64,000 nucleotides of DNA from Limnospira fusiformis SAG 85.79 (lineage in GTDB: Bacteria; Cyanobacteriota; Cyanobacteriia; Cyanobacteriales; Microcoleaceae): contig NZ_CP051185.1 of assembly GCF_012516315.1 (NCBI RefSeq), forward strand, positions 3,911,363 to 3,975,362, in the 5' to 3' direction. The stretch's first letter is position 1. Each line of letters starts with the position of its first letter. The notes below the pieces were generated by a model that saw only the letters and a program-made list of their open reading frames with translations, did not search any database and had not been told where the DNA came from. The position numbers and the translations under genes were made by a program. Below, one piece after another: positions 25,646 through 33,676 of the stretch.

Positions 25646-25689
25646 TTAGAAAACTCCGGTGATTTGCAAAAAAAGCTGATTTGCCTAGT

Positions 25690-25858
25690 GTTGGGTTTCA
25701 CCCAACCTACTCTGTTGGGTTTCACCCAACCTACTCTGTTGGGTTTCACCCAACCTACTCTGTTGGGTTTCACCCAACCTACTCCTACACCCAACCTACT
25801 CTGTTGGGTTTCACCCAACCTACTCCTACACCCAACCTACTCCTACACCCAACCTACA
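25690..25858. repeat. short palindromic tandem repeat, 24-bp period
   Basis: GTTGGGTTTCACCCAAC is a 17-bp palindrome with arms GTTGGGT/ACCCAAC. It recurs about five times with spacer ctactct, intermixed with half units (ctacacccaac). It can form hairpins on either strand, downstream of the 84-aa membrane protein gene and upstream of the DUF3181-like start. It shares the (G)TTGGGT/ACCCAA(C) arms with the big repeat arrays. Confidence 0.9.
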
Positions 25859-30096: not shown

Positions 30097-30285
30097 AATT
30101 ATAGCCCCAAGTTTTCGGTTAAACTTCTTATGGCATTATACCACAGTTTACACATTATATAGCATTCCACACCAAATTAATTATTTCTGTTGATCTACCG
30201 CAGCTTAATCGTCCCCCAGACCCCAGCCTGAGATTTTTAATCATTTTTTAAGTCTTGTCGCCGTCACTTGGTGCTAAAATTGTCT

Positions 30286-30304
30286 ACAATGATAATCATT
30301 CTCA
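30286..30304. promoter_or_regulatory. candidate Zur box upstream of znuABC
   Basis: The near-palindrome AATGATAATCATT (30288-30300), followed by ctca, resembles cyanobacterial Zur operators (TGAnAATnATTnTCA type). It lies 457 bp upstream of znuA, an unusually long distance explained by the structured element at 30352-30698. It would allow zinc-dependent repression. Confidence 0.65.
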
Positions 30305-30351
30305 CCCAGGGCAGCCAACTCACCCATATCAGAAGCGATTATTCCCGTGGA

Positions 30352-30698
30352 GTCAGCACCCCCGACTGAAGCACGGGGGCTTCGTGCCCCCCTTTCAGGT
30401 AGCTGACCAGCTTAAGCCTTAACTGGCTCCGTTCAGAGCAAGAGTTAAAGTTCCTACCCTGGAATGCGTGCTAGTTCCAGGCCCTAGAACCGAATCGTTA
30501 AACATCTCTAAGGGGTTAAGGACGTGCGATTTGGATAGTACCGACTCTGAACATTGGCGAAGCAAACATTACCCCGCAAGGGAGTCGGAGCCAACCATAG
30601 CTCCATGGAGGGGCAACCATACCCCTCCACCCCGCAAGGGGGTGCTGGCGGCGGTCAGCCGCTTGAGTAGGTTTTCCTCTCCGTGATCAATCACGGAG
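30352..30698 (+). ncRNA. structured hairpin-rich RNA, HEARO/IscB omega-RNA-like, no nuclease gene
   Basis: At least six stems follow one another: GTCAGC/GCTGAC (30352-30357 with 30402-30407) enclosing GC-rich alternatives such as GGGGGC-TTCGT-GCCCCC; CCTGGAA/TTCCAGG (30458-30464, 30475-30481); CCGACTC/GAGTCGG (30541-30547, 30582-30588); GGAGGGG/CCCCTCC (30607-30613, 30622-30628); CCCC-GCAA-GGGG; and CTCCGTGAT/ATCACGGAG (30679-30687, 30690-30698). There is no credible ORF. Length, hairpin order, the GCAAG loops and the GTGA just downstream recall HEARO elements (IscB omega RNAs), many of which in Arthrospira-type genomes lack the ORF as I recall. An IS200/IS605 end or a cis-regulatory leader of znuA are alternatives. 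Confidence 0.5.
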
Positions 30699-30756
30699 CT
30701 TCCAACCCTCCCAGGAGTTTTACGTGAAAAGCATGATCACCAGTTAGCAGGAGGTT

Positions 30757-31923
30757 TTGATGATTTCCAGATCTCGATTATTCGGACGTTTAACAGTATT
30801 GGTGGCTTCAACAGTCGCCCTAGGTTTAGGAGGTTGTGGTCCGACAGATACCACTGGCGAGACAGAAACACCAGAGACTCAAGCTACAACTGTAGCCACA
30901 GAAGCACAGTTGCAGGTGGTGACCACATTCTTACCCATGACACAGTTTACCAGAGCTGTGGTAGGCGATCGCGCCACAGTAGTGCAATTAATGCCGACCA
31001 ATGTGGGACCCCATGATTTTCAGTCTAGACCAGGAGATATACAGGCGATCGTCAACGCTGATGTCTTGGTGAAAAACGGCTTGGAAATGGAGTTTTTCCT
31101 AGATAGTTTGATTGAGAATGCCCGCAATGATAACCTAGTAATTATTGACTCTAGTCAAGGCATCCCTACCGTTGCTAATGAAGATCATGATCATGATCAC
31201 GGTCATGGTCACGGTCACGGACATGATCACGGTCACGGTCACGGTCACGGTCACGGTCACGGTCATGATCACGGTCACGGTCACGGTCATGATCACGGTC
31301 ACGGACATCATCACCACCATCATGGAGAATTTAACCCCCATATTTGGCTAGATCCTAAACGCGCAATTCAGCAAGTCGAAAATATTCGAGATGGGTTAAT
31401 AGCCACTGATCCAGAAGGGGCCGAAAAATACACAGCCAATGCGGCTGCATTCATCGAAAAACTGCGAGAACTTGATGCTGAGATTACCCAAAAACTAGCG
31501 CCTTTTGCTGGACAAACTTTTGTAGTCTTCCATGATTTTGCCCCCTACTTTGCCGAAAGGTATAACCTCATATCTCAATCTTTTGTGGGTATCCCGGAAC
31601 AAAATCCATCCCCCCAAGATGTACAAAGAGTTATGAATACAGTTGCCGAATCAGGACTACAAACTATCCTGACTGAACCCCAAGTAGATCAGGATATGTT
31701 TTCTACGATCGCCCGAGATATGGGAATTCGTGTCGGTGTCTTTAACCCTATCGAAACTGGCGAACCTGAAGCGATCGAACCTGAATATTATCTGCGTGTC
31801 ATGCGGGAAAATGTTCAAAATTTATTAGAGGCTTTTGGCGGCGGACAAACACAGTCATGGCTACCTTTATCAACCCCTAAATCTGTGGCGGTTATTCCCC
31901 AACCAGTTGGCTTACGCTTCTAG
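30757..31923 (+). CDS. znuA: zinc ABC transporter substrate-binding lipoprotein ZnuA
   Basis: This high-affinity zinc-binding protein delivers zinc to ZnuB. A lipoprotein signal (basic start, hydrophobic run, lipobox LGGC with C27) indicates membrane anchoring. Cluster A-I fold motifs are GPHDFQSRPGD, HIWLDPKRA, VVFHDFAPYF and the C-terminal VFNPIETG. Between about residues 145 and 190 lies an unusually long His/Asp/Gly run (HDHGHGHGHG type, ending HHHHHHG), a zinc-loading loop. RBS caggagg precedes ATG 30757. Length of 388 is longer than usual because of the His loop. Confidence 0.95.
   Translation: MMISRSRLFGRLTVLVASTVALGLGGCGPTDTTGETETPETQATTVATEAQLQVVTTFLPMTQFTRAVVGDRATVVQLMPTNVGPHDFQSRPGDIQAIVNADVLVKNGLEMEFFLDSLIENARNDNLVIIDSSQGIPTVANEDHDHDHGHGHGHGHDHGHGHGHGHGHGHDHGHGHGHDHGHGHHHHHHGEFNPHIWLDPKRAIQQVENIRDGLIATDPEGAEKYTANAAAFIEKLRELDAEITQKLAPFAGQTFVVFHDFAPYFAERYNLISQSFVGIPEQNPSPQDVQRVMNTVAESGLQTILTEPQVDQDMFSTIARDMGIRVGVFNPIETGEPEAIEPEYYLRVMRENVQNLLEAFGGGQTQSWLPLSTPKSVAVIPQPVGLRF
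31183..31325 (+). repeat. GGTCAC hexanucleotide repeat encoding the His-Gly loop of ZnuA
   Basis: The 6-bp unit ggtcac (Gly-His), with gatcac and gatcat variants (Asp-His), is repeated about 20 times. Slippage by whole units preserves frame, so loop length should vary between strains. Confidence 0.9.
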
Positions 31924-31994: not shown

Positions 31995-32786
31995 TTGAAA
32001 AATCCCGTGTTAATAGTAGATAAACTAACTGTTTATCATGAGACATATTTGGCTGTTGACCAGGTTTCTTTTAGCTTAGAAGAAGGAACCGACATGGCAA
32101 TTATTGGACCCAATGGGGCTGGGAAAAGTACATTAATTCAGTCGATTTTAGGCATTTTACCCCGCCAAAATGGTGATGTATTTATCCTAGGACAGCCTTT
32201 GAGTCGCTCAGGATATTTGCCTAATTATGTCCGCCGGGAAATTGCCTATTTACCTCAAAATTTTATGTTCGATCGCCGCATTCCTATCACTGTTCAGGAA
32301 TTAGTCGGTTTGGGATGGGATAAATTAGGTTTACAACTGCCTTGGGTGGGTTCCAGAAGCCGTTATCATGCTATTAGACAAGCATTAATCAAGGTGGAGG
32401 CTTGGAACCTACGTCATCACTTGATTGGTGGTCTTTCCGGTGGTGAAATGAAGCGAGTTTTATTAGCTTATTGTGTGGTGCGTCCCCGTCGCTTATTGAT
32501 ACTTGATGAGGCTTTGGCTGGCTTAGATGTTCAGGGAGAGTTGGATTTTTACCAATTATTATATCAACTCAAAAAAGAAGAAGGTTGGGCAATTTTGCAG
32601 ATTTCCCACGACCTAGATCAGGTGAAAAAACACTGCGATCGCGTACTGTGTTTAAATCGCATGGTATTGTCAGAAGGACCCCCGGAAACTATCCTTTCTC
32701 CCGAAAATATAGCGATCGCTTATGGTTCTCAATTACGATTAATCCATACCAATAATCATCATATAAACAATCAAATCACGGGTTAA
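31995..32786 (+). CDS. znuC: zinc ABC transporter ATPase ZnuC
   Basis: This 263-residue ATPase has Walker A GPNGAGKST, signature LSGGEMKRV, Walker B LLILDEALAGLD and the H-loop His in ISHDLDQV. The start is TTG 31995, chosen because aaggag (31982-31987) is correctly spaced; the ATG at 31988 is out of frame. The C-terminus carries a short His/Asn-rich tail (HTNNHHINNQ), fitting a metal transporter. Confidence 0.94.
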   Translation: MKNPVLIVDKLTVYHETYLAVDQVSFSLEEGTDMAIIGPNGAGKSTLIQSILGILPRQNGDVFILGQPLSRSGYLPNYVRREIAYLPQNFMFDRRIPITVQELVGLGWDKLGLQLPWVGSRSRYHAIRQALIKVEAWNLRHHLIGGLSGGEMKRVLLAYCVVRPRRLLILDEALAGLDVQGELDFYQLLYQLKKEEGWAILQISHDLDQVKKHCDRVLCLNRMVLSEGPPETILSPENIAIAYGSQLRLIHTNNHHINNQITG

Positions 32787-32836
32787 TTATTACCCGGTAA
32801 CATGGAAATCTGATCTAATTATAAGGAGATTAACCC

Positions 32837-33676
32837 TTGAATATTCCAGCCGACTTAATGCGTATGATTGAGCTTTTTCAACTGCCTTTTATGCAGCGAG
32901 CCATCATGGGTGGGATTCTGACTGGGTTGATGGGGGGAATGTTAGGCAGTTTCACCATTTTAAGGCAACTGTCTTTTTTTAGTGATGCCCTCGGACATTC
33001 CGCATTATTAGGCATTAGTATTAGCCTGTTATTAAGGATTGATCCGTCTTGGGTGATTCTACCTTTTGCCGTATTATTTGCCCTCGGTGTTACCTATTTT
33101 ATGGAACGTACCCAACTCTGGACTGATGCTTTATTAAATATAATTTACTCTTCATCTCTGGCTATTGGTATTATTATCCTGAGTTTTAGAGACGATTACC
33201 GAGGGGGAATTAGTAATATTTTATTTGGCGATATTTTGGGGATTCGCGAATCGGATTTAATCTTGTCTGGTTTGTTACTATTAATCTGCATTGCATTTAT
33301 TGCCCTCACTTTGCGATCGCAGATGTTACTAACCTTAAATGAACCCTTAGCCATTGCACGCGGCGTGGCTGTCACACCCCATCGCACTGTCTTTATAGTC
33401 TTATTATCCCTACTGGTGGGAATATCTATCAGGGCGATCGGTGTATTGCTAATTAGTGCTTTTGTGGTAATTCCCGCCTGTGCGGCTAGGTTACTAACCC
33501 GCAATTTTATCGGTTACATTATCGTATCATCGGCTTTAGGTGGATTTAGTGCGGTTTTAGGTATGATATTATCAGCCTTATTAAACTTGCCCTCCGGTCC
33601 CAGTATTGTCACCATGCAGTTAGCCATTTTTCTGCTGGCTATTCTCATTCCCAATCTGAAACTGTTAGTATCCTAA
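32837..33676 (+). CDS. znuB: zinc ABC transporter permease ZnuB
   Basis: This 279-residue ABC-3 family membrane permease has about eight hydrophobic spans. Landmarks are MGGILTGLMGGMLGSFTILR, FFSDALGHSALLGI, and RGVAVTPHRT before the second half. The start is TTG 32837 with RBS aaggag at 32823-32828. It closes the znuABC operon; no zur gene is in the window. Confidence 0.94.
   Translation: MNIPADLMRMIELFQLPFMQRAIMGGILTGLMGGMLGSFTILRQLSFFSDALGHSALLGISISLLLRIDPSWVILPFAVLFALGVTYFMERTQLWTDALLNIIYSSSLAIGIIILSFRDDYRGGISNILFGDILGIRESDLILSGLLLLICIAFIALTLRSQMLLTLNEPLAIARGVAVTPHRTVFIVLLSLLVGISIRAIGVLLISAFVVIPACAARLLTRNFIGYIIVSSALGGFSAVLGMILSALLNLPSGPSIVTMQLAIFLLAILIPNLKLLVS

Follow-up and report, generated by a model that had tools for sequence, protein, structure and literature searches.

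The leader of the zinc-uptake gene znuA in this genome is interrupted by a 372-bp element (30352-30723, + strand; coordinates are those of the window, that is, the whole 64-kb stretch of DNA analysed). As judged from its sequence, this is a nonautonomous IscB/omega-RNA element of a known kind, whose predicted guide matches its own empty site; it is new to that kind and well delimited. The best explanation of the whole, which we consider moderately probable, is that a nonautonomous IS200/IS605-type HEARO/IscB element takes its guide from a zinc-driven host transcript, works with IscB supplied in trans, and is retained in this way.

Structure and exact boundaries of the insert

When all Rfam models were searched against the 64-kb window, the sole match was HEARO (RF02033) at 30352-30572 on the + strand, with model positions 1-211 complete and a score of 155.5 bits (E 7e-33) against a curated cut-off of 83 bits. 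The 475-base stretch around the insert folds better than 100/100 of its dinucleotide shuffles on either strand (z -3.6 on +, -4.35 on -), and the single ORF within the insert, 72 aa long, is a mechanical call. An earlier note on this DNA had proposed a structured, non-coding insert of HEARO type between a Zur-like box and znuA, and both the covariance match and the shuffle folding agree with the proposal; its structured insert stands, but not the size of 347 nt that it gave. Downstream of the full-length omega-RNA scaffold lies a 3' tail (30573-30723, +) with the last bases TTTTAC, which is kept in 31/31 complete solo copies of the genome, and the tail holds a subterminal hairpin, CTCCGTGATCAATCACGGAG (30679-30698, +), recognized from its sequence.

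The related Arthrospira sp. PCC 9108 carries the empty site, ...ATTCCCGTGGA|GTGAAAAGC..., or in a longer reading ...ATTCCCGTGGA|GTGAAAAGCATGATC..., and the leader in the window reads ...ATTCCCGTGGA|GTCAGC...TTTTAC|GTGAAAAGCATGATC...; from this comparison the insert comprises exactly 30352-30723, without target duplication. The element begins with HEARO position 1, and the host sequence on its 3' side opens with GTGA (30724-30727, +), an NTGA-type motif and the TAM of the site when unoccupied. The 20 nt of host flank abutting HEARO position 1 (GAAGCGATTATTCCCGTGGA, 30332-30351, +) are the would-be 5' guide, and the empty site of PCC 9108 carries the last 14 nt of this flank unchanged, next to GTGA. 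Because the element begins at 30352, a guide of 16-20 nt ends at 30351, in line with the earlier placement of the guide near 30335-30351. For ten other solo copies, the two flanks were joined and likewise searched in PCC 9108, and 7/10 align across the junction, which makes them empty sites. Precise insertion without target-site duplication, as in IS200/IS605-type elements, was thus found at the znuA site and at seven more sites. The element shares with nonautonomous IS200/IS605-type elements this precise insertion without target duplication, the subterminal hairpin and a fixed flanking tetranucleotide; it differs from them in carrying a guide RNA and in that no same-end transposase was found in the genome, matching ends being present near none of the eight Y1_Tnp (TnpA-type) genes.

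The position between operator and start codon is typical for a leader, and the stretch could be read as a structured znuA leader or riboswitch of ordinary, ancestral origin that is not mobile; an ancestral locus with the same sequence was what the earlier note had named as speaking against its own reading. The PCC 9108 locus is without the sequence and offers a precise empty site, HEARO is the only Rfam match, and 30 other complete copies with the same ends stand in unrelated places. An ordinary leader is refuted by these observations, and we regard it as extremely improbable.

The zinc-uptake locus and its putative operator

The znuA gene (30760-31923, +; Pfam ZnuA PF01297, 264.6 bits) encodes the substrate-binding protein of a zinc ABC transporter, starts with an ATG at 30760 behind an RBS, AGGAGG, at 30749-30754, and is followed by genes for the zinc ABC transporter ATPase and an ABC-3 permease (31995-33676, +; PF00005 and PF00950). 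The near-palindrome TGATAATCATTCTCA (30290-30304, +) is a putative Zur-like operator. With 0, 1 or 2 changes, the motif precedes znuA in PCC 9108 and in six other cyanobacterial loci, and since it is kept before znuA across loci, the label of a putative Zur box is reasonable. In PCC 9108, without the insert, the gene match starts 94 bp downstream of the Zur box; in this genome about 457 bp separate the end of the operator from the znuA ATG, which bears out the distance of 457 bp given in the earlier note. TACAAT (30285-30290, +) is a candidate -10 of the znuA promoter, picked by eye only, and a promoter scan of the + strand returned no full sigma-70 site.

Two smaller observations belong to this part of the window. 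A long His/Asp/Gly-rich run in ZnuA (window 31180-31330) differs in length from that in PCC 9108, as expected for repeats, which typically expand and contract, and at 25689-25827 palindromic repeats of the TGTTGGGTTTCACCCAACCTACTC type stand head-to-tail, with further occurrences elsewhere in the genome.

Sister elements and IscB in the same genome

Copy counts, which rest on genome searches and fetched loci, gave 50 HEARO matches in the element's own genome, 47 of them above the cut-off. The 31 complete solo elements are 371-401 bp long, start with GTCAGC and end with AGTTTTAC. The four bases on their 3' side are GTGA in 29/31, ATGA in 1/31 and GTGG in 1/31, and the 5' flank, hence the guide, differs at each of the 31. 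Nine elements of 1.60-1.63 kb bear IscB, and all of them (9/9) end in GAGGTTTAC|GTGA after a subterminal hairpin similar to that of the solo element. A genome-wide count of the end pattern followed by RTGA gave 38, versus 0 for the reversed control. IscB ORFs free of stops are present in 8/9 of these elements, and the one ORF tested matched the NCBIfam IscB equivalog NF040563 with 477 bits and has RRXRR and HNH domains. The omega-RNA part of the element before znuA is 92-95% identical to that of the IscB elements, and the eight intact ORFs provide a cognate IscB encoded outside the element. The earlier note had looked to further copies in the genome whose 5' flanks differ and to an IscB gene elsewhere as checks on its reading, and the genome holds both.

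Like HEARO/IscB omega RNAs (RF02033; OMEGA systems), the element combines a full covariance match with a flank-derived 5' guide, an NTGA-type motif and intact IscB in the genome's sister elements; unlike a typical HEARO/IscB element, it is without the nuclease gene and is placed in the leader of a host operon. Researchers have reported an NTGA TAM for IsrB (PMC9581776), and standalone omega RNAs have been reported to be functional with IscB (cited in PMC9581776). Our element resembles the latter in being a solo scaffold that has a guide of its own, with IscB encoded elsewhere in the genome. It differs in that one copy, of putative activity, has its ends, empty site and motif all pinned down here, and in that the host promoter is likely zinc-controlled.

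Transcription and possible zinc control

The element is co-directional with znuA and lies downstream of the conserved putative Zur box. Since the guide is host DNA, a transcript begun in the host flank has to run through the 30351/30352 junction, and we infer that the omega RNA would arise from the zinc-regulated znuA transcript starting near the Zur box. With this transcript as the source of the guide, guide production would follow zinc starvation. An RNA-seq study of Limnospira indica PCC 8005 listed HEARO RNAs among the differentially expressed RNA genes and set them aside as mobility remnants (PMC8400943). Transcripts of at least some such copies therefore seem to exist, and the study is silent on the copy in the znuA leader. 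The layout is compatible with an insert that would couple zinc regulation to the RNA, which is an attractive and testable hypothesis. A more far-reaching and quite tentative idea is that a 5' guide in host DNA needs a host promoter, so that copies would be selected for sense placement in leaders, with the guide under host-gene control; here, zinc starvation would switch on IscB targeting of the empty znuA allele.

Orientation of HEARO insertions

A real sense bias, 46:3 across 100 HEARO insertions, is the new observation of this work. Six other genomes contributed 60 HEARO loci to the sample and the element's own genome 41, with genes called by codon usage; one copy with a lost 3' end was left out, giving 100 copies from seven cyanobacterial genomes. 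Where the neighbouring genes were co-directional, the omega RNA was sense in 46 cases and antisense in 3 (p ~3e-10, with the null set at 0.52 by the GTGA motif). In this count the downstream neighbours of the relatives' copies, whose 3' element ends are not fixed, are known with less certainty than those in the own genome. The remaining copies lie between divergent genes (33), between convergent genes (12), inside called ORFs in sense (5), or beside one neighbour only (1). Stricter gene calls changed the sense:antisense counts to 43:5 and 43:8, and in the own genome alone the bias is weaker (15:2, or 14:5 with the strictest calls). No pair among the compared HEARO loci of the seven genomes shares both flanks, and the insertions therefore look independent.

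The GTGA motif itself was rejected as the cause of the bias, since in tandem gaps it points either way about equally often (118:109). The controls were two TnpB families from the element's own genome: a 378-aa family gave 5:5, and a 1.75-kb family gave 16:3. Because the latter is also biased, the sense bias is not restricted to 5'-guide elements, let alone unique to HEARO, and it does not prove that the guide functions; its cause may be a preference at insertion, or selection that removes antisense or polar insertions. The 1.75-kb family (L261-L296, e.g. L262:2981-4675) deserves a remark of its own: it has at least 36 copies with an ORF of 564-578 aa, in which TnpB homology begins only from about residue 190 and the N-terminal stretch is open and unexplained. 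A search of the element for Rfam introns gave no match, and the family may represent an IStron-like element or some other unusual form of TnpB element.

Guide, target and proposed mechanism

The element carries only an omega-RNA gene and the element ends. Its insertion directly before GTGA in the znuA leader turned the host DNA on its left into the predicted guide and left the GTGA on its right as the TAM of the unoccupied site. In the mechanism that we favor, transcription from the zinc-regulated promoter near the Zur box would run across the junction, so that a long znuA leader holds guide and scaffold, and zinc starvation would be the main condition for guide production. IscB from a sister element, acting in trans, would bind the omega RNA and could cut the empty znuA allele, whether this arises by excision, stands on another chromosome copy or enters with incoming DNA; repair of the cut allele from the filled copy would retain the element. 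By anatomy, GTGA stands beside the guide match only in the empty site. The 12 guide bases on the scaffold side occur six times in the genome, and RTGA follows 0/5 of the other matches; thus, no second motif-bearing target was found on the filled chromosome. For TnpB, the sister nuclease, drive and retention of IS200/605 elements have been shown (PMC11870625). The likeness lies in a guide that comes from the insertion site and a target that is the empty allele; the differences are that the guide here is 5' rather than 3', that the nuclease would act in trans, and that drive, shown for TnpB, is deduced here. The effect of the insert on znuABC would be at most that of a 372-nt structured leader.

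Solo copies are 93-99% identical to one another, which suggests that their transposition burst is recent. Among the copies, diversity is 0.038 in the omega-RNA part and 0.024 in the tail, paired and unpaired positions are equally variable, and the compensatory change at two neighbouring pairs apparently reflects one event. Purifying selection on the RNA within the burst was not seen, and since conservation of the omega-RNA part does not exceed that of the tail, the copies give no sign of functional maintenance of solo RNAs at this level. These data would suit an inert passenger, a MITE-like HEARO copy of the recent burst whose omega RNA is scarce or unloaded and which does little harm in the leader, as would the lack of any site common to two species. 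Nevertheless, the RNA is full length and high-scoring, intact IscB is encoded in the genome, and the sense bias is strong, though harm avoidance could produce such a bias too. We therefore regard an inert passenger as possible and clearly less probable than the retention mechanism.

A host-adopted regulator tied to zinc status was also considered: either the insert would act in cis as the leader of znuA, or the RNA and IscB together would regulate in trans by means of the guide. It gains some weight from the location between the Zur box and the start codon, and from the solo copies that often precede co-directional genes. However, an occupied site conserved across related species, which would be a sign of adoption, was not seen: the nearest relative, PCC 9108, is empty, no orthologous site is filled in two of the seven genomes whose HEARO loci were compared, and the genome has no other motif-bearing guide match. 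On present evidence an adopted regulator is unlikely, and we give it very little credence.

Exact boundaries, a relative with a sequenced empty site, intact IscB encoded in trans and a promoter that is probably switchable by zinc make this locus a clean natural test case for the behaviour of solo omega RNAs. The 46:3 count further makes the transcription source of 5'-guide omega RNAs a question answerable from existing RNA-seq, and if guide production tracks host promoters, retention of the elements would depend on host physiology.

Some additional observations concern IscB elements at large. In some IscB elements of this genome the open frame has 457 rather than 438 codons, because an extra stretch sits just upstream in frame. 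A second, divergent IscB-type set in the same genome (L108, L109, L111) has open frames of 346-380 aa, its own HEARO RNAs near the cut-off, and different ends. The IscB elements of a cyanobacterium of another family (L184-L186, G026) are about 95% identical at the DNA level to those of PCC 9108 (L179-L180, G001), which suggests recent horizontal transfer.
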